Shown here: positions 6,725-16,666 of the stretch, piece by piece
Position numbering within the stretch: position 1 is the stretch's first letter
How the letters are laid out: every line of letters starts with the position of its first letter
Virus record (IMG/VR): IMGVR_UViG_3300046002_000825
Span: 1 to 20,088 of that record
Strand: one strand, 5' to 3'
DNA: 20,088 nt
Source: a virus
Notes under the pieces: generated by a model
Seen by the model: only the letters and a program-made list of their open reading frames with translations
What the model was told of the DNA's origin: nothing
Database searches by the model: none
Program-made: the position numbers and the translations under genes

Positions 6725-6951
6725 TAGTATTCTAAATCATATTCCACTGAAATAGCCATGTGACTGTTAAATTTCTTCCACGGCATAACTTCATCACTTT
6801 TCTTTATATAAATATTGTATGAATTATCAACTTCCTCAAATAGTATATGGGAGATTTTATGTCCCCCGTATACTTCTTGATTTACTGAATAGTGCATTGC
6901 GTCGTTTTTATAATCCGCTCCAATACTTATTTTTCTAATGACATTAGCCAT
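6724..6951 (-). CDS. Small conserved-type phage protein, function unknown
   Basis: This 75-residue protein is likely mostly beta strand. It opens with MANVIRKISIGADYKNDAMH and has a central GGHKISHILFEEVDNSYNIYI segment with an alternating hydrophobic pattern. It ends in VEYDLEY, overlapping the next start by one base (TAATG). I recognise the pattern from other marine Bacteroidota phage genomes but know of no function. Its place between the coiled-coil protein and the co-chaperonin-like protein, in the packaging/head operon, suggests a role in head assembly or a coupled process. No catalytic motif, Cys cluster or membrane segment is visible. Confidence 0.75.
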   Translation of the reverse strand: MANVIRKISIGADYKNDAMHYSVNQEVYGGHKISHILFEEVDNSYNIYIKKSDEVMPWKKFNSHMAISVEYDLEY

Positions 6952-7201
6952 TACTTTCTTCCTTCTCGATTTCAGTATAACTACCGTCTTCTAGGTTAAT
7001 ATTAATAGCACCATATTCAGATTCCAATTCTGATTTAAAATCCTCAACTTCTTTATTGACTTCAGCAACTTGATGTAATAACGAATGCTTTTGTGTTTCT
7101 AGAACACCAATGTTCGTTAACAATACGTTTAAGTCTTTTTGTTGAGCAACGATTTTTTCTAATTGATCTTTCTTAATAGTTTTTGTTTCCACTTTTTTCA
7201 T
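6944..7201 (-). CDS. Small coiled-coil protein, function unknown
   Basis: This 85-residue protein has a heptad-like helical region from about residue 10 to 60 (QLEKIVAQQKDLNVLL through EVEDFKSELESEYG). A short strand-like and acidic tail follows (INLEDGSYTEIEKEE). It overlaps the downstream gene by eight bases and starts 28 bases after the tRNA 3' end, so the tRNA lies just upstream of this head/packaging block. Parallel or antiparallel oligomerisation is likely from the heptads. Nothing indicates an enzyme. The start is ATG at 7201 (MKKVETKT). Confidence 0.75.
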   Translation of the reverse strand: MKKVETKTIKKDQLEKIVAQQKDLNVLLTNIGVLETQKHSLLHQVAEVNKEVEDFKSELESEYGAININLEDGSYTEIEKEESNG

Positions 7202-7229
7202 TTTACTTGATTTAATTGTTAATAATTAG

Positions 7230-7302
7230 TAGCAACGTACTGGAGTCGAACCAGTTTAAGCGGGCTTATGAGACCCGTGAGATACCTTACCTCCCACCTG
7301 CT
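7230..7302 (-). tRNA. tRNA with CAU anticodon (tRNA-Met-like)
   Basis: Read on the minus strand, the 73-base segment folds as a cloverleaf. The D stem GAGG/TCTC has a 7-base loop. The anticodon stem CGGGT/GCCCG has loop CTCATAA with anticodon CAT. The variable loop is five bases. The T stem ACTGG/CCAGT has loop TTCGACT. The acceptor stem pairs AGCAGGT with AC(G)TTGCT only if one G in the 3' strand is bulged, so the exact ends are uncertain. No CCA is encoded; the 3' end reads A-CTA. The A11:T24 pair is typical of bacterial initiator tRNA, but the anticodon stem lacks a perfect GGG:CCC set. Elongator Met or lysidine-modified Ile are alternatives. Confidence 0.8.
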
Positions 7303-7305
7303 ATC

Positions 7306-7322
7306 AGCTTACTACATAAGCT
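7306..7322 (-). other. Perfect 6-bp hairpin just upstream of the tRNA
   Basis: The sequence contains a perfect inverted repeat AGCTTA/TAAGCT with a 5-base loop, ending three bases before the predicted tRNA 5' end on the minus strand. It lies in the gap between the stop of the Lys/Met-rich gene (7335) and the tRNA. No T-run follows it on the minus strand, so an intrinsic terminator is unlikely. A processing or pausing element that helps release the tRNA from the operon transcript is possible. The short stem could also occur by chance in AT-rich DNA. Confidence 0.4.
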
Positions 7323-7334
7323 TAGTTATTTTAA

Positions 7335-7805
7335 TTAGCAACTTTTTTTCTTCATTTGCTTCATTGGCATTTTATTCATTTGTTTCATTGGGGATTTTTT
7401 TGCCATTTGCTTAGCAGGAGTTCTAGTATATTTATCCTCAAAACCTTTTTTACCTTCTACTTGAGTTTTTGTAACAGTAGTAGTGGCTCCGCTTTCTTTA
7501 CGAGTTTTGTTAGCCGCTTTATTACCAATGGCAGCCTTTTGTCTTTTAGTAAATAAATCACCCGCCTTATTGCTAGCTTCTATACTATCTGTAGCAGCAC
7601 CTATTTCAATACCACGATCTCTTTCTGATAGTTTTTTAATGCTTGCGCGCTTCTTAGCAGCTTCTTCTCCCGCTTTTACTAATCCTAAAGCTTTTTTTAC
7701 CTTAGGGTCTTCTTGACGCATTGGTGAACCACTCATTAATGTAGGAGAAATTCCTGCTCCAGTTTTTGTACCGTTACCTCTTCCTGGTGTTTGTTTGTAT
7801 GCCAT
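7335..7805 (-). CDS. Lys/Met-rich basic protein with SPMKQM-type C-terminal repeats
   Basis: This 156-residue protein is strongly basic and probably partly disordered. It opens with a Gly/Thr-rich segment (MAYKQTPGRGNGTKTGAG). A helical Lys/Ala-rich middle follows (VKKALGLVKAGEEAAKKR through AAIGNKAANKTRKE). It closes with repeated units: AKQMAKKSPMKQM, NKMPMKQM, KKKSC. The SPMK/PMKQM repeats resemble the basic Ser-Pro-Lys motifs of some DNA-binding tails. I have seen similar tails on small proteins of marine Bacteroidota phages without a known role. DNA or RNA binding, or a minor virion component, is an inference from charge. The start is ATG at 7805 after a T/G-rich spacer. Confidence 0.75.
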   Translation of the reverse strand: MAYKQTPGRGNGTKTGAGISPTLMSGSPMRQEDPKVKKALGLVKAGEEAAKKRASIKKLSERDRGIEIGAATDSIEASNKAGDLFTKRQKAAIGNKAANKTRKESGATTTVTKTQVEGKKGFEDKYTRTPAKQMAKKSPMKQMNKMPMKQMKKKSC

Positions 7806-7832
7806 TTTGTTTGTTTTGTTTTAGGTTAATTG

Positions 7833-8198
7833 TTATCTTGTTTTTGTGTATATTATTTTTGTAACTTTATTAGTGTAACAGTTTGTAGAAGTACATTCCA
7901 TAGTGCCGTTTTCCAACATCACATAATAGTTTAATGCTTTATCTTCTTCTTTGATACTTGATTTAATAAATATAGATTCTAAATTAATTCTAAAATCTCT
8001 GTTTATAAAACTTTCTCCTGTTACATTGCTTATCTGTTGTACTTTTAATTCACCTGCTGGTGTTTCCCAAAAGAACAAATGAGAAGATGGTTTATCCGGC
8101 ATCCACCAACCAATAAGTTGTAATGTGTTAATCTCTTCTTGCGCAAAAGTGTTTAAATTAAATAATCCAAACGCTAAAATTAAAATAAGTTTTTTCAT
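7833..8198 (-). CDS. Small exported protein with signal peptide
   Basis: This 121-residue protein begins with a textbook signal peptide (MKKLILILAFGLFNLNTFAQ): a Lys-Lys n-region, a hydrophobic core, and an AxA-like/Ala-Gln cleavage region followed by Glu, common in Bacteroidota secreted proteins. There is no lipobox Cys, so the mature protein of about 100 residues is likely periplasmic or released. The mature part looks beta-rich, with a Trp-Trp pair (GWWMPDKPSSHLFFWETP) and two Cys in CTSTNC that could form a disulfide. I do not recognise the family. A phage-encoded periplasmic protein could act in superinfection exclusion or envelope modification, but nothing here proves either. Confidence 0.75.
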   Translation of the reverse strand: MKKLILILAFGLFNLNTFAQEEINTLQLIGWWMPDKPSSHLFFWETPAGELKVQQISNVTGESFINRDFRINLESIFIKSSIKEEDKALNYYVMLENGTMECTSTNCYTNKVTKIIYTKTR

Positions 8199-8257
8199 AA
8201 TGATATAAATTTAATTAGATTAGTATTAATATATATATCACGCATAATATTTACTTT

Positions 8258-8569
8258 TTATTGTTTTGCATAAGCCTCTGCCTCCCAAGGTAATTTCTTA
8301 CTACCCTCTTTCATTGTAGCCCGGGGATATTTTTTACCTTTCCAGAATACATGTGAGTCGTTGTAATCTAAATCACCTCTATTCATTTGATCTAAATGAA
8401 CTTTCTCATGAGAGATTGTTTTATTCTTTTTTAATACAGCAGGCGAAACATTTTTATTTATAAGTATACTACCTTTATTTGTAGCCATACCTAAAACATC
8501 ATCACCCATATCTTGTTGATAGATAGGAGTGTTATCAATTTCGTATGGACTTCTTAGTTTGAACGCCAT
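8258..8569 (-). CDS. Minimal HExxH metallopeptidase-like protein
   Basis: This 103-residue protein contains a complete zinc-metallopeptidase signature, ISHEKVHLDQM, with His54, Glu55 and His58. A third possible ligand lies in the C-terminal LPWEAEAYAKQ (Glu96 or Glu98), the E-A-x-x arrangement of gluzincins. The core before the motif has a strand-like segment (GSILINKNVSP), comparable with the edge strand that precedes the active helix in such enzymes. There is no signal peptide or propeptide, and at about 100 residues it is far shorter than typical metalloproteases. It sits among small genes between the chaperonins and the head module. Prohead or virion protein processing, host-protein cleavage, or a non-catalytic metal-binding role are all possible. 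Confidence 0.7.
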   Translation of the reverse strand: MAFKLRSPYEIDNTPIYQQDMGDDVLGMATNKGSILINKNVSPAVLKKNKTISHEKVHLDQMNRGDLDYNDSHVFWKGKKYPRATMKEGSKKLPWEAEAYAKQ

Positions 8570-8580
8570 AAGTTTATATA

Positions 8581-8745
8581 TTAATTGTTCTCTTCTTTTT
8601 TACCACCTATATGCATCCACTTATGTAATGTATATCCTATTGATACCAATAACAAAGTTATTTTTAAGAATGGTTCTATCGCTGTCATACTTAACATTAA
8701 TGACACTGAGTTTAGAGTGTAAAGCTTCAAATCAGTAAATGTCAT
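8581..8745 (-). CDS. Small single-span membrane protein
   Basis: A 54-codon frame on the minus strand runs from ATG 8745 to TAA at 8581 and encodes MTFTDLKLYTLNSVSLMLSM, then a hydrophobic segment with IEPFLKITLLLVSIGYTL (about residues 23-40), and finally a basic/charged tail HKWMHIGGKKEENN. It fills the space between the neighbouring genes almost exactly: three bases after the upstream stop and 11 bases before the downstream start. That spacing is strong evidence it is real. One or two membrane helices are possible because residues 9-21 are also fairly hydrophobic. Small phage proteins of this shape may act as holin-like or membrane accessory factors, but it is outside the recognised lysis cassette. 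Confidence 0.7.
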   Translation of the reverse strand: MTFTDLKLYTLNSVSLMLSMTAIEPFLKITLLLVSIGYTLHKWMHIGGKKEENN

Positions 8746-8748
8746 TTT

Positions 8749-8964
8749 TTATCTTCTTTTAGCACGTTGCGTAATAGGCTCAAGTGGTGCGCCTCCGCAT
8801 CCACAATCTAATTTTAATTTCATACCATTTTTACCTCCGCTATATCCTTGTCCTTTTGGATAAGCAGACATATCTAATGGTCCGTCCCATAAATGGTTTA
8901 ATCCAGATACACCAGGTTTTTCCATTTTAACTAAGTGTGGGTCGATTGTTTTATTATTCATCAT
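8749..8964 (-). CDS. Small Gly/Pro-rich protein with CxCG motif, unknown
   Basis: This 71-residue protein begins MMNNKTIDPHLVKMEKPG. It has a Gly-rich central part (AYPKGQGYSGGKNGMKLK) and ends with LDCGCGGAPLEPITQRAKRR, combining a Cys-Gly-Cys-Gly-Gly motif with a basic tail. The two Cys are too few for a conventional zinc finger unless the protein dimerises. A short structural or virion-decorating peptide is equally plausible. I do not recognise a named family. It begins 18 bases after the upstream stop, in an unbroken run of co-directional small genes. The start at ATG 8964 is followed by a second ATG at 8961, and either could be used. Confidence 0.65.
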   Translation of the reverse strand: MMNNKTIDPHLVKMEKPGVSGLNHLWDGPLDMSAYPKGQGYSGGKNGMKLKLDCGCGGAPLEPITQRAKRR

Positions 8965-8982
8965 ATCTTTGTTGTTTAGTAA

Positions 8983-9285
8983 TTACATTTGAGGTTCTTG
9001 AGCTGGATCCATACTTGACATTGTTCTATCAAATGAATTCTCCATACCTGTTCCGAATACACCGTTAATTGTTGATGCACTTTGTGGACTAAATGGTACA
9101 GGTGCACCACTATTTTTAATATTAGGATTCATTGGTCTTGGCGTAGATGCTAAAGCAGGATTAGCCATTTTAGGTTGTGATGTTAAATCTGTATTTGCAT
9201 CCATCTTTGGATTTAAAGCTTGTGATGCGTTTGTATAATTGTCAACTGTCATTTTAGGTTGTACATCTTGTAAATAATTTTTCAT
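8983..9285 (-). CDS. Low-complexity Asn/Pro/Met-rich protein, unknown
   Basis: This 100-residue protein is low in complexity and probably disordered. It carries recurrent short units of the form QPKM/NPKM (VQPKMTVDN, LNPKMDANT, SQPKMANPA), a Pro/Asn-rich middle (STPRPMNPNIKNSG), and ends in DPAQEPQM. It overlaps the upstream winged-helix-like gene by four bases (ATGA), so translational coupling is likely. No catalytic motif, membrane segment or Cys is present. Similar disordered proteins in phages can be virion linkers or assembly factors. No specific function can be supported. Confidence 0.7.
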   Translation of the reverse strand: MKNYLQDVQPKMTVDNYTNASQALNPKMDANTDLTSQPKMANPALASTPRPMNPNIKNSGAPVPFSPQSASTINGVFGTGMENSFDRTMSSMDPAQEPQM

Positions 9286-9728
9286 CGTGTTTTATCTTTA
9301 TTAACGTTCTTTATTGCTGATTGTAAAACTGTGTCTGTATATGTTTTACCTCTCATTATAGTATTTCTTCTTTCGCTTGTTGGTATATCTTCGTCTCCAA
9401 TCATAATACGGTACATTCTACTTATTAGTTGTTTGCACTTGAAAGAGACTTTATATATATTGTATTTTTGAGTTGTATGGTTACGTTTTCTCCAAACCAC
9501 TATCCACCCTTCTTTTAACAACCTGTCCCAGCGCATCTTATCCCAACTATATGTATAAGTACCTACCTCATAATCATGTCTAGTAAAGAAATCTAAACAA
9601 TCAAAATATATTAATAATTCTAAATCTGCATCAGCAAGACCGTTATTTCTACAAGCCCATCTCCTAATTATTCTGTAATGTTTTAATAAACCAGATTCAC
9701 GTAGGTCACTAGCTTCTAACCGTTTCAT
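9282..9728 (-). CDS. Winged-helix (MarR-like) domain protein, putative
   Basis: This 148-residue protein has a pattern compatible with a winged helix-turn-helix. Helical segments (YRIIRRWACRNNGL, DADLELLIYFDCLDFF) are followed by SWDKMRWDRLLKEGWIVVWR, which reads like the recognition helix and first wing strand of MarR-type domains (LLKEGWI comparable with LxxKGLI). A second wing strand (KYNIYKVSFKCKQLISRMYR) and a basic C-terminus follow. It could regulate transcription or be a DNA-binding accessory protein. In phages such folds also occur in virion proteins. Both ends use ATGA-type four-base overlaps, with groES upstream and the low-complexity gene downstream, so it is tightly coupled to the chaperonin operon. 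Confidence 0.6.
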   Translation of the reverse strand: MKRLEASDLRESGLLKHYRIIRRWACRNNGLADADLELLIYFDCLDFFTRHDYEVGTYTYSWDKMRWDRLLKEGWIVVWRKRNHTTQKYNIYKVSFKCKQLISRMYRIMIGDEDIPTSERRNTIMRGKTYTDTVLQSAIKNVNKDKTR

Positions 9729-9988
9729 AATACAACAACTATATCTTGTAGTTTTATAACTGTATATTTATTACCTTCAAATTCAATAGTATGGCCAGCG
9801 TGTTTATCATAATATATTTCGTCACCTTCCTTAATGACTTTTATTTCATCACTGATCGATACAATTATTGCTTCTTTATATCTAATATCTTCACTGTCTT
9901 TTTCTTTTAAAATAAGACCGTTCTTTGTTTCTTTTGTAGCTTTTACCTTCTTAGGTAAAATAACTATATTATTACCTATTGCCTTCAT
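9725..9988 (-). CDS. groES: GroES-like co-chaperonin
   Basis: This 87-residue protein matches the GroES (cpn10) layout. It starts with MKAIGNNIVILPKKV, corresponding to the first beta strand. A mobile-loop region TKETKNGLILKEKDSED carries the hydrophobic tripeptide LIL at residues 25-27, where E. coli GroES has IVL for binding GroEL. EAIIVSISDEIKVIKEGDEIYYDKHAGHTIEF follows, equivalent to GEVVAVG, VKVGDKVLY and KYAG. The protein closes with KYTVIKLQDIVVVL. It should cap the adjacent phage GroEL during ATP-driven protein folding. It is slightly shorter than bacterial GroES (about 95 residues). The ATG at 9988 lies inside the end of groEL (17-base overlap), so expression is probably coupled. 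Confidence 0.92.
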   Translation of the reverse strand: MKAIGNNIVILPKKVKATKETKNGLILKEKDSEDIRYKEAIIVSISDEIKVIKEGDEIYYDKHAGHTIEFEGNKYTVIKLQDIVVVL

Positions 9989-11525
9989 TAATTCTAAGAT
10001 TATTGATTACACAATCGGTTGATAAAATAGTTGTAGCAACTGAAGAAGCATTCTTTAACGCAGACTTTGTTACAAGTAATGGGTCTATAATACCGGCTTT
10101 AATCATATTAACTGTTTCACCAGTTATAACATTTAAACCTAAGCCTTCTTCTTGGGGTATTGGTATTTCAATTCCTGCATTTAATAATATTGTATGATAA
10201 GGGGCTTTGATTGCGTCTAGTAATACCCATTCTCCTTCTGTTAATCCACCAATATACATTGCGGCATTTAATAAAGCAATTCCTCCACCTGGTACAATGC
10301 CTTCTTTAATAGCTGCTTTTGTTGCGCAGATTGCATCTTCTACTCTATCTGCTTTTTCTTTTAATTCTATATCAGATCCTGCGCCTACTTTTACAACAGC
10401 TACTTTGCCTGATAATCTTGCTAATCTTCTTTCCAATCTAATTACCTCAGCTGGATTCTTAGCTGTTTCTAATTGTTTTTTTACTGTATCAATAAGATCC
10501 AATACTTCTTGTGAATATTCTCCAACTTGAATAATGGTCTCTACATCGGTTGTTACAGCTTTAATACATGATCCTAAATGTTGTGGAGTTATAAGATCCA
10601 TATCATCTCCAAGATCTTCGTTAATAATTGTAGCACCTGTTAATAATGCTAAATCATCTAATGTATCTTTTTTATTAACACCGTATGTTGGTGCGTTAAT
10701 AACATTTGCCTTTAAATTACCTTTAACTTTGTTCATTGCAATTACTGAAAGAACTTGGGGTTCCATATCTGCAATAATAAGTAATGGCTTTTTTATTTTC
10801 ATACAGTGTTCTAAAGTACCTTGTATTTGTCTAATATTTTCAACTGGTGATTCAATGATAAGAACTAAAGCATTATCTAACTCTGCTGCTTTCTTTGAAG
10901 CATTAGTTACAAAATGTGAATTAACTAATCCTTTATCATATTGAATACCATCAATAACTTCTATTTCTGTAGTATTAAGATCTGACATTTCCATCATTAC
11001 GATACCATTGTCACCAGCAGCTCTAAAAGCATCTGCAATAACCTTACCTAATTCAGGATCATTATTAACAGATATAGTAGCCACGTTATCAATCATATCT
11101 CCTGATACTGGTATTGCAATACTTTCTAAGTATTTAATTACTTTTTCTGTAGCATTCTCAATACCTTCTTTTAATTCTCTGCTACTAGTACCTTTTGGAA
11201 CTTTATAAGCATGATTTAAAATAGAATGAGTTAATACTGTAGCGGTTGTTGTACCGTCTCCAGCTTCTTTAACTGTTTTTCTTGCGGCTTCCTTAAGTAA
11301 CGTTGCACCCATATTTTCTACTGGATCTAATAGTATAATACTATCCGCTACTGTTACACCATCTTTTGTAATTACTGGTCTACCAGCTCCATCTTCTAAT
11401 ATTACACATTTACCACTGGCACCAAGTGTTGAACTTACGGCTCTAGTTAATTTAGTAATACCTTCGAATATCTTATTCTTTGCATCTTCGCCAAAGTTAA
11501 GATTCTTTACGATTGCTTCTGTCAT
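9972..11525 (-). CDS. groEL: GroEL-like chaperonin
   Basis: This 517-residue protein is a full-length group I chaperonin. The equatorial ATP-binding region shows KDGVTVA, the phosphate-binding GDGTTTAT with Asp90, and Asp397 in RVEDAICATKAA, followed by the GGG loop (413-415). The apical domain is complete but has changes at substrate-contact positions by alignment with E. coli: Leu200 for Tyr199, His204 for Tyr203, Gln235 for Leu234, Ala263 and Met264 for Val263/Val264. The protein is about 30 residues shorter than E. coli GroEL because of a shortened equatorial loop and no C-terminal GGM repeat tail; it ends LRINEGNR. It probably folds phage virion proteins with GroES encoded just downstream. 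The ATG at 11525 follows a 62-base A/T-rich gap. Confidence 0.95.
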   Translation of the reverse strand: MTEAIVKNLNFGEDAKNKIFEGITKLTRAVSSTLGASGKCVILEDGAGRPVITKDGVTVADSIILLDPVENMGATLLKEAARKTVKEAGDGTTTATVLTHSILNHAYKVPKGTSSRELKEGIENATEKVIKYLESIAIPVSGDMIDNVATISVNNDPELGKVIADAFRAAGDNGIVMMEMSDLNTTEIEVIDGIQYDKGLVNSHFVTNASKKAAELDNALVLIIESPVENIRQIQGTLEHCMKIKKPLLIIADMEPQVLSVIAMNKVKGNLKANVINAPTYGVNKKDTLDDLALLTGATIINEDLGDDMDLITPQHLGSCIKAVTTDVETIIQVGEYSQEVLDLIDTVKKQLETAKNPAEVIRLERRLARLSGKVAVVKVGAGSDIELKEKADRVEDAICATKAAIKEGIVPGGGIALLNAAMYIGGLTEGEWVLLDAIKAPYHTILLNAGIEIPIPQEEGLGLNVITGETVNMIKAGIIDPLLVTKSALKNASSVATTILSTDCVINNLRINEGNR

Positions 11526-11587
11526 GATTTGATTTTATTTAATTTAAGTTGATAGTTGTATTATTACGTATATTTTACCATTTTAGG

Positions 11588-12058
11588 TTAAAACAGTTTA
11601 CTTTTAAATTTTTGATACAACCAAATAATTAATAATAGTAATATAATCCAGAAAGATAACCAAAACCAAAATGTTTTAGCTTCTTTCTTATCTACTGTCT
11701 TAACTTTTTCTTTCTTAGTTTCTTTAGTTACTGTTTTTGATTGTTTTTGGCTTGTTTTAGACACTATACTATCTTTTGAATATATAGTGTTATCTTTTTT
11801 ATTTTTAATCTTAATACGAGCATTAAAATACTTTTTGCCTTCTACAACGAATTCCTTAGTTGAATCGATCGGTATGATTTCTATTTCATGTGTATCAATG
11901 TTAAATTTAATTTCCGTTTTTGCAACTTCACTAATTGAGTCTTTCTGCACAACAGTCTCCACGATAGCCTTCTCTTCGACTTTATCGGTTCTATTTACTT
12001 TTCTTGCACCACACGCTAAAAATAATGTCGATAGCAATATTAAAATGTATTTACTCAT
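11588..12058 (-). CDS. Putative unimolecular spanin (lipoprotein with C-terminal membrane helix)
   Basis: This 156-residue protein has a lipoprotein signal peptide with lipobox FLAC (Cys16). A Lys/Glu/Thr/Ser-rich periplasmic stretch follows, including repeated KET/KTVTKETKKEKVKT units. A strongly hydrophobic C-terminal helix (about 129-148) and basic tail KFKSKLF complete it. An outer-membrane lipid anchor plus an inner-membrane C-terminal helix in one chain is the architecture of one-component spanins such as phage T1 gp11, which fuse outer and inner membranes in the last lysis step. Its position directly after the endolysin supports this. The short beta-rich piece (KFNIDTHEIEIIPIDST) is also compatible with u-spanin ectodomains. 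An alternative is a lipoprotein with an incidental membrane helix. Confidence 0.65.
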   Translation of the reverse strand: MSKYILILLSTLFLACGARKVNRTDKVEEKAIVETVVQKDSISEVAKTEIKFNIDTHEIEIIPIDSTKEFVVEGKKYFNARIKIKNKKDNTIYSKDSIVSKTSQKQSKTVTKETKKEKVKTVDKKEAKTFWFWLSFWIILLLLIIWLYQKFKSKLF

Positions 12059-12071
12059 ACTGTTTTTTTAT

Positions 12072-12533
12072 TTATTTATACGGAATATAACTTGTTTTCC
12101 CATTTACCCTAATTGCTTTTAAAATTTGTTTTCTTTGTTTACCAGTTGATTCATAAGATATATGAACCCAATCAGGGTTTTTATCCGTACCAAACTCCCA
12201 AATCATTTGATCAAATACTAAATTGTCTTTAATATAATTAAATATTTGAGCATTAGTAATTGATGTGCCGTCCATATCAATATCAATTGCTTCACCAGAA
12301 CAATGCTGAGAAGTCTGACTTCCACCAATAGCCGCATTCAAAGCTTTACTTCTATATCCTGAACTAATTCTGATAGGCACACCAAAATTATCTCTAATAG
12401 GTTGAAACACGTTCTCAGCTAATTTTTTAAAGTTTTCAATATGCTCAGGTGTTGGCATATTGCTAATTCCTTTTCTTTTAGCAGTGTTGCTCTTGGTTAC
12501 TTCTGCTAATGCTAAATTTTTACTCAGTTGCAT
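12072..12533 (-). CDS. Peptidase M15 family endolysin (D-Ala-D-Ala carboxypeptidase-like)
   Basis: This 153-residue protein has the peptidase M15A signature. A LAEVTKS/RKGISN start region is followed by IRISSGYRS, then the zinc-site segment SQHCSGEAIDID with His77 and Asp84 (seven residues apart, as in the family). The third ligand is His124 in DWVHISY, with Asp121 as the probable catalytic acid three residues before it. It should cut peptide cross-links of host peptidoglycan. No signal peptide is present, so release would depend on the holin encoded just upstream. I chose ATG 12533 (MQLSKNLALAEV), where the recognisable family begins; an in-frame ATG at 12587 would add 18 residues and deepen the overlap with the holin gene. 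With the chosen start, the overlap is 14 bases. Confidence 0.85.
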   Translation of the reverse strand: MQLSKNLALAEVTKSNTAKRKGISNMPTPEHIENFKKLAENVFQPIRDNFGVPIRISSGYRSKALNAAIGGSQTSQHCSGEAIDIDMDGTSITNAQIFNYIKDNLVFDQMIWEFGTDKNPDWVHISYESTGKQRKQILKAIRVNGKTSYIPYK

Positions 12534-12774
12534 CTTGTTCTTCGTTTTTGTTTTTAGTAAATATTGTTCCTGCCATGGATATGCCAAATGATACGGATGT
12601 CAAAATAAGAAATCCATTAAATATAAATTCTTCAATAACTAATTTGTTACCAATTATTCCCGTTATAACATCTGCTATTAACACAAATATCATAGCAAAA
12701 AAAGACACAACTCCAACAAATGTTTTTTCATTTATATTGTTGTCATCACTTAATAAATTTTTCCAAAATCCCAT
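12520..12774 (-). CDS. Putative holin (two membrane helices)
   Basis: This 84-residue protein has two hydrophobic helices (about residues 19-41, FVGVVSFFAMIFVLIADVIT, and about 49-72, EFIFNGFLILTSVSFGISM). A charged, hydrophilic N-terminus (KNLLSDDNNINE) and a charged C-terminus (TKNKNEEQDATE) flank them. This is the layout of class II holins, which form the inner-membrane lesion that times lysis. Its place between the spanin-like lipoprotein and the M15 endolysin, overlapping the latter, supports the call. A small membrane protein of other function cannot be excluded from the sequence alone. Confidence 0.7.
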   Translation of the reverse strand: MGFWKNLLSDDNNINEKTFVGVVSFFAMIFVLIADVITGIIGNKLVIEEFIFNGFLILTSVSFGISMAGTIFTKNKNEEQDATE

Positions 12775-12776
12775 AA

Positions 12777-13154
12777 TTATTTTATTGTATCTATTACTGT
12801 TATTGAATCTTTATTTGCGCCAATTACTTTGTCAAATAATGATCTTTTCTTGGGTACTTTATATTCGTTTATTTTTTTATTAGCTATTACTAAACAATCT
12901 TTTGTAGTGGCTATTTCTTCTTTTAGATTAAAGTTTTCATTTTTAAGATCAGAATTTTCTACTCTTAAAATATCTTTATAATTAACAACCTGTTCAACGT
13001 TGTCTTCTAACCCTTCGGTTTTTATTAATAAGCTATCCATATTCTCTACGTTATTAGAAAATATAGTATCAATTGCTACGACTTCTTTTTTAGTAACCCT
13101 AGATTTACTACACGATACTAATAGTACTACAAAAATTATAAATATTTTTTCCAT
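12777..13154 (-). CDS. Lipoprotein, putative outer-membrane spanin subunit
   Basis: This 125-residue protein starts with a short lipoprotein signal peptide (MEKIFIIFVVLLVSCSKS) whose lipobox LVSC puts the lipidated Cys at residue 15. The mature part is highly charged and helical, with heptad-like segments (VENSDLKNENFNLKEEIATT). It begins on the last base of the upstream gene, which encodes a membrane-anchored coiled-coil protein, and ends two bases before the holin start. Adjacent, overlapping inner-membrane and lipoprotein coiled-coil genes beside a holin and endolysin are the hallmark of a two-component spanin. The outer subunit is longer than Rz1, so the call is architectural only. Confidence 0.65.
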   Translation of the reverse strand: MEKIFIIFVVLLVSCSKSRVTKKEVVAIDTIFSNNVENMDSLLIKTEGLEDNVEQVVNYKDILRVENSDLKNENFNLKEEIATTKDCLVIANKKINEYKVPKKRSLFDKVIGANKDSITVIDTIK

Positions 13155-13414
13155 TATTCCAACCCTTTAATTTGATCCAACATTTCTAACTTAGTTGCTG
13201 CCCTGGCTAATGTACTGTCTGACTTACGCAGCCTTTCGTCTAATAAGTCGACTTTTTTTGTTAGGGCTTCCACATTGACGCCACATTTTTCTATCTGAGA
13301 CGTATAGTTCATTTTATTATCAACATATAAATAACCAACCGCTATTATTACTAAAAATAATAATCCTTTAACGGGGTCTTTTGAAAATTCTTTAAAATTT
13401 ATAGGTAATTCCAT
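13154..13414 (-). CDS. Membrane-anchored coiled-coil protein, putative inner-membrane spanin
   Basis: This 86-residue protein has a short cytoplasmic N-terminus, one transmembrane helix (about residues 16-31, GLLFLVIIAVGYLYV) and a periplasmic coiled coil (about 48-82, LTKKVDLLDERLRKSDSTLA and onwards). That is the type II membrane topology and heptad structure of inner-membrane spanins such as Rz. It is immediately followed, with one shared base, by a lipoprotein gene, and the lysis genes come next. A structural membrane protein or a holin accessory are alternatives. The start is ATG at 13414 after an A/T-only leader. Confidence 0.65.
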   Translation of the reverse strand: MELPINFKEFSKDPVKGLLFLVIIAVGYLYVDNKMNYTSQIEKCGVNVEALTKKVDLLDERLRKSDSTLARAATKLEMLDQIKGLE

Positions 13415-13439
13415 AATTATTAAATATTATTATTATTGT

Positions 13440-13829
13440 TTATTTAACTTCTACATTTACTTCTTCAATTATAACATCACCATCTACAACAGCAACAACA
13501 GTTTCTTCTGTGTTTGCAAAAGGTGGAGGTAATGTTACCATTACAGGATTAATTATTAGTTCAATTTGCTCAGCAATATTTAACTGCATAGCTGGAACAT
13601 CCATTGTTTCTTCCATCCAACCAATAACTTGCTCCTCGTTTAATTCTGGATAAGGTGTGAATGCATCAGGAGTAGGTGTTCCTACGGCTTGTGCCCCATA
13701 AATTTCCGCTGATATTCCATCTTTTGTTGTACCGTTGTACCTCCAATGCACTGTTGTAACAACATCTTGCATTCCGTCCTCGTCTACTCTGCAATCAAAT
13801 GCAGAAAAAATCCATTTGTAAGTGATCAT
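13440..13829 (-). CDS. Small conserved-type phage protein (DUF7936-like)
   Basis: This 129-residue protein begins MITYKWIFSAFDCRVDEDGMQ and includes DVVTTVHWRYNGTTKDG. This pattern recurs in small proteins beside tail-fibre genes in other phages and resembles the DUF7936 family as I recall it. The middle has a Pro-rich linker and a segment ELNEEQVIGWMEETM. The end is a Val/Glu-rich strand-like tail. The role is unknown; proximity to fibres suggests a fibre assembly or virion accessory part. The leader carries seven TTTA repeats (AAAT units on the coding strand) directly before the ATG at 13829, which may act as an A-rich ribosome-loading region. Confidence 0.7.
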   Translation of the reverse strand: MITYKWIFSAFDCRVDEDGMQDVVTTVHWRYNGTTKDGISAEIYGAQAVGTPTPDAFTPYPELNEEQVIGWMEETMDVPAMQLNIAEQIELIINPVMVTLPPPFANTEETVVAVVDGDVIIEEVNVEVK

Positions 13830-13870: not shown

Positions 13871-16666
13871 TTATGCCCAAGCCAGTGTTTTCCAACCTGA
13901 TCCATTAGTAAACACTTGTATTACTTCATCCTCTTTATTAAATATCATTAATCCTGCCAAAGGACTGCCTATATTATCCCTATCTGCGGTTGACATTGAA
14001 GGTGGAAGAAATCCTTTCGAATTTGATTTCAAATGAAGTATTGCACTTGCGTTTGGACTTGTCGTTCCTATACCTACGTTGCCGCCACTTGGATTTAAAG
14101 ATAATTGTCTTGGACTACCATTTGACAAAGTTGCTTGAATACTTGGCTCTCCTCCGTTTGTTCCTAAATAAAGTGACCTATTTCCATACCCATTATTTGC
14201 AATAATTGAATATCCATTAGCATCAACATCAAGTTTAGCACCAGGACTTGTAGTTCCAATCCCTACGTTGCCACCCGAAGTGATACGCATACGTTCGCTT
14301 GAAGTCGAAGGATTTCCACTTCCATCTGTAACAACAGTATTAAATGATAAATACCTACCCACTGAAACACCAGCCCCTTCTGTACCTGAAGTTAATCTCC
14401 ATCCTAAAGAATTGCCAAAGTTATTACCAAAATTAAAAAGATCTAAATGAGCATAAGATAAAGCATTATAGCCACCTGCATTTACTCTTAAATATTGATT
14501 GGTTGTTGCGTTACTTAATGAACCTTCTCCTAATTGTAATAATGTTTGAGGACTAGTAGTTCCAATACCTACGTTACCACTTGAATCAATTCGCATTCTT
14601 TCAGCATTGTTTGTACCTAGTACTAATGGTTGAGTTGATCTAGTGCCCACTCCTAAAGGAACTGCTCCTGATGTATTTACTGTAGATATAGTACCCGTTG
14701 CAAATCCTAAGAAAGATACACTTAATCCCCCTAATCCTAAATTATTACCACTACCGCTTATTAAAATGTTTTTTAAACCCGTTCCATTCCCAACTTGAAA
14801 AGCAGCACTTGGTATATTTGTTCCTATACCTACATTAGCACCGTTATCAAATATTTGGCTATTACCAATTGTATCAGCATCCGTCCATTTCGTTACATAA
14901 TTTGTTGTACCTGAACCGTCTACAGCACCACTACCTATTGGAATCTCTATAACATTACCTGAACTGTCTACCGCTAATCTCTGAGTAGCTGTACCTGTGA
15001 ATGAACCTGAACCGTATGAATTGAATTTGATTGCTCCGTTTGAAGCAATACGCATTCTTTCGGATTCATTGGTCTTAAAACCTAAATTTAATCCGTTAAT
15101 TTCTAAATTAACATTTACACTTGCAGTGTCATCAAAAGCATTTATTTTTCCGCCATTACTTAAACCAGTCGAAGGTTGAAAAGCAATATTTACATCTGAA
15201 CTTGGTCTTATTTGAAGTTTAGCATTTGAAAAAGGACTTGTCGTTCCGATACCGACGTTACCGCCTGAAGTGATACGCATACGTTCGGAGTCATTTGTAA
15301 ATAATGACATATTAGAACTTGAATCATAACCTATATACCCACTTTGAGAGTTTGTCGCTCCATTGTATGATAATTGTAAATAAGTAGTCGTTCCTGTAGC
15401 ACCTTCTAATTTTAATACTGTTCCAATCCCTGTTTGGCCTAAAACGTGTAATGTTCTTGCAGGACTTGTCGTTCCAATTCCTACGTTGCCATTTGAATTT
15501 ATATAAACCCTACTTACTCCGCCTGAATACAAAGATATTGCGTCTGCCGCTAATGAACCAAAATAAGCTATTCCGTTTGTTCCTTCTATAAACGCTCCCT
15601 CATAAGTGTTTGCATCTCTAAATCTACCTACTCCACTAACGTCTAATTTCCAAGCTGGACTTGCCGTTCCAATTCCTACGTTTCCTATTCCGTCAATTGT
15701 CATTCTAATATCGGAACTTACTCCCGAACGATGTGTATTAAATTGAATAATATCGTCAGTTGTAGTGCTTAAAAATTTAATTGCACCCCTAAAAGTTTCT
15801 GTTCCGCTACTTGATTTTCCAATCCATTGACTTGAATTATCTAAAGCGTTACCAACCTTTATGTTTCCTAAAGACGTAAGTTTGCTATCGGGAATTGTCG
15901 TTCCAATACCTACGTTACCCGAAGGTGTTAAGGTTAATTTTGTTCCACCAGCCGCTCCATTGTAAAATTCAAGATTACCAATTGTTCTACCGTTTTCAAT
16001 ATTCCATTCCGCACCCCCAATCCTTGTATCAATCATTTGATAAATAGGATAAGTTGTAGCCCAATTCCCATTAACAGAAACATTACCTGCAATACTTACC
16101 GCAACTCCACTTACTTCACTTATAATACTATTACCTAAAGATGTAGAGCCTGTGAATTTAGAAATGTAGTTTATTGTACCTGTTCCTGTAATTGGATTAG
16201 TTAAAGCAGCTTGTCCTCCTATATCAGATAATACCTGTGATGGTGTTCTTTTATGAATAGTGCTACCCGAATGCGTAAGGAAATCTCCTGTAGCATTAGC
16301 AACTGTAGATAACGATAAATCTACAAGTGAAGTTAATCCTCCTGTAACGCTCATAGCGTTTCCACTACCTGACCCTTTTATTATAGTTAAAGCTTCGCCA
16401 CTACCGTTTTTAGTAATAGAAGCGGCAACTCCACTTCCTGAAGAATGATTTATTATTAAATCTTTTGCTAATAAAGTATGTGTGCCTAAATCAACATTGC
16501 CTGTAGCACCTGTGTAAGGAACGTATATACCACTTACTCCTAAGTCAGAAAGCACTTGTGCACCTGTTCTATATTTTACAGTGGTACTGTCAGACACCAA
16601 AAACTTATCGGTGTCTACAGTAGCATTGTTTAAAGCTTCGAGCTGTACTTCGCTTTTAAATTTCAT
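13871..16666 (-). CDS. Large repeat-containing tail fibre / adhesin
   Basis: This 931-residue protein is the longest in the window and is Gly/Ser/Thr/Asn-rich. The N-terminus (ATVDTDKFLVSDSTTVKYRT, then GAQVLSDLG) is of the type seen in fibre attachment regions, and GAQVLSDLG-like text recurs as PSQVLSDIG. From about residue 250 it carries eight units with the core NVGIGT (near residues 250, 328, 394, 471, 611, 698, 801 and 864), most as GNVGIGTTSP and often preceded by ERMRI. This is the usual beta-structured shaft repeat of Bacteroidota phage fibres. The C-terminus (FLPPSMSTADRDNIGSPLAG, then a short tail with GWKTLA) is a common end module. No S74 chaperone domain is present. It probably binds host surface glycans. 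Confidence 0.85.
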   Translation of the reverse strand: MKFKSEVQLEALNNATVDTDKFLVSDSTTVKYRTGAQVLSDLGVSGIYVPYTGATGNVDLGTHTLLAKDLIINHSSGSGVAASITKNGSGEALTIIKGSGSGNAMSVTGGLTSLVDLSLSTVANATGDFLTHSGSTIHKRTPSQVLSDIGGQAALTNPITGTGTINYISKFTGSTSLGNSIISEVSGVAVSIAGNVSVNGNWATTYPIYQMIDTRIGGAEWNIENGRTIGNLEFYNGAAGGTKLTLTPSGNVGIGTTIPDSKLTSLGNIKVGNALDNSSQWIGKSSSGTETFRGAIKFLSTTTDDIIQFNTHRSGVSSDIRMTIDGIGNVGIGTASPAWKLDVSGVGRFRDANTYEGAFIEGTNGIAYFGSLAADAISLYSGGVSRVYINSNGNVGIGTTSPARTLHVLGQTGIGTVLKLEGATGTTTYLQLSYNGATNSQSGYIGYDSSSNMSLFTNDSERMRITSGGNVGIGTTSPFSNAKLQIRPSSDVNIAFQPSTGLSNGGKINAFDDTASVNVNLEINGLNLGFKTNESERMRIASNGAIKFNSYGSGSFTGTATQRLAVDSSGNVIEIPIGSGAVDGSGTTNYVTKWTDADTIGNSQIFDNGANVGIGTNIPSAAFQVGNGTGLKNILISGSGNNLGLGGLSVSFLGFATGTISTVNTSGAVPLGVGTRSTQPLVLGTNNAERMRIDSSGNVGIGTTSPQTLLQLGEGSLSNATTNQYLRVNAGGYNALSYAHLDLFNFGNNFGNSLGWRLTSGTEGAGVSVGRYLSFNTVVTDGSGNPSTSSERMRITSGGNVGIGTTSPGAKLDVDANGYSIIANNGYGNRSLYLGTNGGEPSIQATLSNGSPRQLSLNPSGGNVGIGTTSPNASAILHLKSNSKGFLPPSMSTADRDNIGSPLAGLMIFNKEDEVIQVFTNGSGWKTLAWA
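14277..14297. repeat. Direct repeat copy 1 within fibre gene
   Basis: Twenty-one bases starting GAAGTGATACGC are identical to positions 15267-15287. They encode the GGNVGIGT-adjacent ERMRITSGG unit of the fibre. Several looser copies lie between. Such exact copies in frame could let recombination add or remove shaft repeats. Confidence 0.85.
15267..15287. repeat. Direct repeat copy 2 within fibre gene
   Basis: Identical over 21 bases to positions 14277-14297, in the same reading frame of the 931-residue fibre gene. The 990-base distance is a multiple of three, so recombination between the two copies would keep the frame and shorten the fibre by 330 residues. Confidence 0.85.

Follow-up and report, generated by a model that had tools for sequence, protein, structure and literature searches.

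A mosaic phage lysis cassette with candidate two-component and unimolecular spanins in the same gene cluster

The stretch of DNA analyzed here, which we refer to as the window, is a 20,088-base fragment of an uncultured virus. Open reading frame calls and Pfam matches place five genes on its minus strand in the order I-O-H-E-U, followed by genes for GroEL and GroES (Table 1). The original prediction described these five as an inner-membrane coiled-coil protein, an overlapping lipoprotein, a holin, an M15 endolysin, and a protein with a lipobox and a C-terminal membrane helix, and it read the first two as an i-spanin/o-spanin pair and the last as a u-spanin. All five reading frames lie at the claimed place and in the claimed order when checked on the minus strand, and the membrane helix or lipobox signals of I, O, and U are present by hydropathy and pattern scans. 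Topology calls throughout come from such simple scans rather than from SignalP or DeepTMHMM, and single cases may be wrong.

Table 1. Genes of the lysis cassette and its surroundings, in window coordinates
Feature	Position	Strand	Description	Evidence
Gene I	13154..13414	-	86 aa, i-spanin candidate	ORF, hydropathy
Gene O	12777..13154	-	125 aa lipoprotein, o-spanin candidate	ORF, alignment
Gene H	12520..12774	-	84 aa, holin candidate, two membrane helices	hydropathy
Gene E	12072..12533	-	153 aa, M15_3 peptidase endolysin	Pfam, PHROG
Gene U	11588..12058	-	156 aa, u-spanin candidate	ORF, hydropathy, alignment, AlphaFold
Swapped-in I-O-H-E module	12074..13453	-		blastn, binned identity
GroEL	9972-11525	-		PF00118 3.2e-57
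GroES	9725-9988	-		PF00166 1.4e-11
Gene D (DUF7936)	13440..13829	-	129 aa	PF25590 9.2e-26

The terminase encoded in the window is 63% identical to that of podovirus MW202828 and 44% identical to those of Flavobacterium elemo phages, and the terminases of Cellulophaga and Tenacibaculum phages are more distant. Given these similarities, a flavobacterial host is likely. MW202828 and the elemo phages have both GroEL and GroES, but several kb from their lysis genes. A profile search of genome contigs with I returned three weak loci only, so no host is named from it. Promoter and terminator scans gave results near shuffle level.

Protein I has one helix near its N-terminus (residues 13-33; mean hydropathy 1.75 at 13-31) and a predicted periplasmic part of about 53 aa. 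The helix agrees with the inner-membrane protein that had been proposed; heptad periodicity supports the proposed coiled coil only weakly (p=0.11 in the periplasmic portion of I, p=0.04 in O). The cytoplasmic tail is conserved (LPINFKEFSKDPVKG), and an alignment of 14 members contains 16 invariant columns, including P3, F9, D12, P13, G26-Y29, and D31. Conservation is highest in the cytoplasmic tail and helix (0.81) and lowest in the periplasmic part (0.60), a pattern opposite to the one expected if I served only as a periplasmic bridge.

Protein O has a lipobox (LVSC, Cys15) and a mature length of about 110 aa. It is a putative lipoprotein, as claimed, and its overlap with I amounts to one base (13154), so that O is adjacent rather than embedded. 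Within the O subfamily alignment the lipobox Cys is invariant and the C-terminus carries the motif PKKRSxFDKV; dN/dS is about 0.22-0.24 against L175, L177, and L180, three related contigs. Both proteins have a periplasmic Cys, Cys44 in I and Cys87 in O, neither of which is invariant across relatives. At least one periplasmic Cys is found in 507 of 528 two-component systems, whose combined periplasmic lengths range from 62 to 300 aa (Kongari 2018, PMC6139136); the combined length for I and O, about 53 + 110 = 163 aa, falls inside this range. Thus the anatomy of a two-component system is present, namely an N-terminal helix protein, an adjacent lipoprotein, periplasmic Cys, and suitable length.

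Database searches add little to these assignments. Neither Pfam nor PHROGs assigned a named function to I, O, H, or U: I had no match in PHROGs, O weakly matched phrog_3671 (function unknown), and three relatives of I matched the Rz-like spanin phrog_739 only at E 0.035 or worse. None of the candidate spanins I, O, and U has a sequence match to a proven spanin, which is not required, spanins being extremely diverse. Searches of annotated phages with I found only one unannotated 634-kb phage, and those with O, with o2 (described below), and with the U of contig L180 found none. The I family also has a member in LR745206 (L194:6001-6225), the record of an uncultured phage of 634,780 bp, where the next protein has 198 aa and a helix at its N-terminus.

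Gene H is a candidate holin by its position and its two helices (19-37 and 50-68 by hydropathy), and it matched no Pfam or PHROG family. Its family comprises 147 loci, usually beside endolysins. The M15 endolysin is borne out by E, which matches Pfam PF08291 (Peptidase_M15_3, E=2.3e-21) and the endolysin family phrog_894 (5.8e-40); E starts at an ATG at 12533, with an in-frame TTG at 12587.

For the last gene, U, we recovered the claimed lipobox (FLAC, Cys16, by pattern scan) and C-terminal membrane helix (mean hydropathy 2.32 at 129-147; residues 128-150 in an AlphaFold model). Cys16 is the only Cys, leaving the periplasmic part without one, and lack of periplasmic Cys is among the u-spanin features listed by Kongari 2018 (PMC6139136). 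The lipobox and C-terminal helix are kept in 53 of 54 non-redundant members; about 11 of the 54 have an extra Cys and most have no other. In an alignment of 45 members C16, R19, K20, and D65 are invariant. The model consists of a signal helix, a beta-rich middle (strands 44-63, 69-78, and 80-99), and the C-terminal helix, with a mean pLDDT of 62.5 that rises locally to near 75 at the strands. Among fold matches to the model, a phage lipoprotein ranks first (2e-9). The sequence of U matched no solved structure, and its sole PHROG match is phrog_5885 (function unknown).

Across relatives, drawn from viral contigs, U occurs directly 3' of M15_3, M15_4, GH24, GH19, and glucosaminidase endolysins, and this direct post-endolysin place is found in the window and in most relatives. 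Purifying selection is evident from a dN/dS of 0.14 against the related contig L004, and the window branch of U carries 16 synonymous and 9 nonsynonymous changes; U is retained under constraint and is not decaying. There is good support for U as a u-spanin in its topology, the lack of periplasmic Cys, the beta-rich model of modest confidence, and the constant place after diverse endolysins. The protein is probably an outer-membrane disruptor.

We considered whether such topologies might arise by chance and rejected this on background rates and on the conservation of all three spanin candidates in relatives. ORFs of 115-200 aa with a lipobox and a C-terminal helix occurred in 18 of 40 lysis neighborhoods versus 3 of 232 terminase-centered loci, and one of those three is U itself. 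Each of the three candidates comes from a family linked to lysis genes.

The I family was collected as 90 loci in 46 clusters, and the gene after I nearly always encodes a small exported protein. Among 86 such I-adjacent partners, a lipobox was scored present in 57 and absent in 29; of the latter, two are accounted for by an unrelated insert of 371 aa, and in two others the PQSC/PNSC site is doubtful. About 25 of the 86 therefore have no lipobox, most having either an ordinary signal peptide (VLAQ) or no signal peptide, and the idea that all O relatives are lipoproteins was dropped on these grounds. These counts rest on adjacency to I; an iterative O model also drew in o2 and some U proteins. 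Every member of the window's O subfamily keeps the lipobox. The predicted i-/o-spanin pair thus stands in its anatomy in the window and its subfamily and is insecure in the wider family, where O often has no lipobox and I is most conserved in its cytoplasmic tail and helix.

Several I/O loci have features of their own. At L187/G013, I/O is the sole spanin-like candidate seen in the portion of the record examined. For G002, G004, G009, G010, and G013, the suggestion that I/O serves as the sole spanin was weakened, as these records may be incomplete; G002 has a small lipoprotein elsewhere in its record. In several loci of the other O subfamily (G006:8963-9409, G005:9736-10182, G008:70309-71124, and G002:26522-26953) there is a third gene, which overlaps O at its 3' end. 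It encodes a signal-peptide protein whose N-terminal part resembles o2, with a C-terminal helix in G005 and G006. Many I/O cassettes have metallophosphoesterase-like genes immediately downstream (L233:6258-7118, L252:3083-4048, L205:7885-8631, and L211:8665-9414, the Pfam check covering L233).

The history of the cassette is legible in DNA comparisons with its closest relatives (L006, L010, L004, and L005), to which similarity is lost exactly over I-O-H-E. By blastn, the window and L006 share 96% identity over 6930-12073, and from 13454 onward they match again at 94.8%; up to 12073, L005, L006, and L010 are all 95-96% identical to the window. On the U side the break falls between the stop of E and the start of U, where L010, L005, and L004 behave like L006, and binned identity to L006 is already lower (64-79%) in the first half of U, with L004 closest there. 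I-O-H-E, whole or in part, is 71-80% identical to a different set of contigs (L016, L094, L175, L177, L178, L180, and L181). I/O is absent from relatives L004-L012, in which a small membrane protein, an M15_4 endolysin, U, and GroEL follow one another and, in several where the contig reaches, a DUF7936 gene lies upstream. Because identity is lost over I-O-H-E and regained on both sides, the whole module must have replaced a different holin-endolysin pair and left the resident U in place. GroEL and GroES, directly downstream of U and common to the U-only relatives, belong to the resident flank, as does gene D upstream of the module. Elsewhere in the window, a 931-aa tail-fiber-like protein (13871-16666) shows patchy similarity to relatives, which suggests mosaic exchange in this gene as well.

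A search for the same trio in related phages recovered I-O-holin-endolysin-U on three further contigs, L180, L323, and L336. In L180 the order is I-O-H-GH19-U. L323 and L336 both have I-O-H-E-U, with I proteins 85% identical and U proteins only 48% identical, and the coexistence there is old, given this divergence of U. The doubling is therefore not unique to the window, and comparative evidence points to a recurring arrangement made by module exchange.

Other genes occupy comparable places. Downstream of I-O-H, L252-L270 carry a different family with a lipobox and C-terminal helix (beginning CNPVKQVL), together with an endolysin of the GH24 or M15 type; the members of this family (L252:2191-2646 and relatives in L254-L270) have a periplasmic Cys, unlike U. 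Further proteins with a lipobox and C-terminal helix are found in L188 and L191. An overlapping gene pair, i2/o2, takes the place after the endolysin in L016, L094, L175-L179, and L181 (for example L094:5434-6160, L016:2862-3573, L181:7342-8053, and L175:2595-3315), and i2/o2 is also found at E loci that lack I/O, among them L129 and L135. In its structural model, o2 comprises a signal helix, a second helix spanning 31-94, and four strands (100-109, 117-126, 130-139, and 142-152), ending near a C-terminal Phe. Its leading PDB fold matches are the trimeric autotransporter anchors of AtaA (9vnj), Hia (3emo, 2gr8, and 2gr7), and YadA (2lme), with probabilities of 0.93-1.00 and E-values of 0.016-0.29. 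These models suggest that o2 is a candidate o-spanin anchored in the outer membrane by a beta-barrel rather than by a lipid; an outer-membrane protein as a possible o-spanin was proposed by Kongari 2018 (PMC6139136). A separate family, S (L001:10491-11114, L146:4344-4994, L219:8649-9197, and L215:1025-1612), combines an N-terminal membrane helix, a DTI/DTV-rich middle, and a beta-rich-looking C-terminal part, and may bridge the membranes in reverse, with its N-terminus in the inner and its C-terminus in the outer membrane.

The reading we favor, with a probability of about 0.55, is that of a mosaic lysis cassette with two systems bridging the inner and outer membranes, in which U is the resident disruptor and I/O a two-component spanin that arrived alongside it. 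U would be placed with its N-terminal lipid in the outer membrane and its C-terminal helix in the inner membrane. After the holin opened the inner membrane and the endolysin cut the peptidoglycan, U would pull or fuse the two membranes. I and O, if they make contact, would form a second, two-component envelope-bridging complex that came with the new holin and endolysin by recombination. Most likely this complex acts as a two-component spanin alongside U, perhaps with some division of labor.

The original prediction offered redundant lysis or another role for one set, and both are conceivable. Several observations leave room for other roles of I/O. About 15 of the 46 I clusters have a second spanin-like candidate within 4.5 kb (U, i2/o2, or another lipobox and C-terminal-helix protein), and several I loci already hold a good candidate after the endolysin, so I/O is maybe not the disruptor; the partners without a lipobox in about 25 related loci make a different envelope or holin-linked role possible. 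It is conceivable, with less confidence than we attach to two bridging systems, that U alone breaks the outer membrane and that I/O is a holin-linked envelope module rather than a spanin, for example an antiholin or lysis-timing sensor with I at the inner membrane and O reporting on the periplasm or outer membrane. The conservation profile of I fits such a role, an H-family gene lies within 1.7 kb in 52 of the 65 I loci with enough flank, and two groups with no lipobox (L214/L216 and L224-L233) have U downstream. However, the holin does not need I/O, as shown by the many H loci that lack the pair, and both the constant lipobox of the window's O subfamily and the I/O of G013, alone in the part of that record examined, argue for the spanin reading, which we rank ahead of a holin-linked regulator, if not by much. 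More speculatively, lysis in Bacteroidota phages may have two layers. An interchangeable disruptor slot after the endolysin would be filled by U, by other lipobox and C-terminal-helix proteins, or by i2/o2 with its barrel-anchored-looking o2, and a separate, conserved I/O complex beside the holin would represent a new class of lysis gene, not a spanin.

It seems unlikely that module exchange has left both systems in place only for a time, with one of them redundant and being lost. The sharp module borders speak for this, as do relatives of the incoming module that hold i2/o2 where the window has U, but purifying selection on U, seen also on the window branch, and the retention of I-O-H-E-U in L323 and L336 despite the drift of U weigh against it. 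That the arrangement is a metagenome assembly chimera of two phages is very improbable: the window is a fragment from an uncultured virus and its identity breaks are abrupt, yet the borders fall at gene boundaries and the same gene order is found on independent contigs.

Kongari 2018 (PMC6139136) assigned 528 of 677 genomes to two-component systems, 58 to unimolecular spanins, and 91 to neither; since these sum to 677, each genome was placed in one category, in agreement with the premise of the original prediction that a phage ordinarily relies on one system. According to a 2025 survey, the spanins of Bacteroidetes phages are exclusively unimolecular (PMC12596118). Both the one-system-per-phage scoring and the unimolecular-only statement are challenged by a recurring cassette in which a two-component candidate stands next to a unimolecular one. 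Published surveys do not report spanin doubling, and searches of an open-access library for papers on doubled systems yielded none recognizable by title or abstract. Natural material with both spanin types together, alone, or swapped makes interchangeability and division of labor directly testable.

Among known systems, U most resembles the u-spanin gp11 of phage T1 in its lipobox, Cys-free periplasmic domain predicted to be beta-rich, C-terminal helix, and place as last lysis gene (PMC6139136). It differs in standing next to a two-component candidate and in its best fold matches, which are lipoproteins of uncultured phages and of Cellulophaga phage phi17:1; T1 gp11 itself has no detectable sequence or fold match to U. 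The only annotated phage found with U was Flavobacterium phage 11b (NC_006356), where the homologue gp49, annotated as hypothetical, lies right after a GH19 endolysin; unlike the window, phage 11b had no I/O relative in the 10 kb examined. Unimolecular spanins are annotated in the flavophages Ingeline and Nekkels, phages of marine Flavobacteriia (PMC8776804). Like U, these are predicted u-spanins, but each is the sole spanin annotated in its phage. The I/O pair is unlike Rz/Rz1 of lambda and PseT.3/PseT.2 of T4 in its short I, long O, single shared base, conserved cytoplasmic tail of I, O relatives without a lipobox, and position before the holin. It is like them in its adjacent N-terminal-helix protein and lipoprotein, periplasmic Cys (PMC6139136), total periplasmic length within range, and linkage to a holin and an endolysin.
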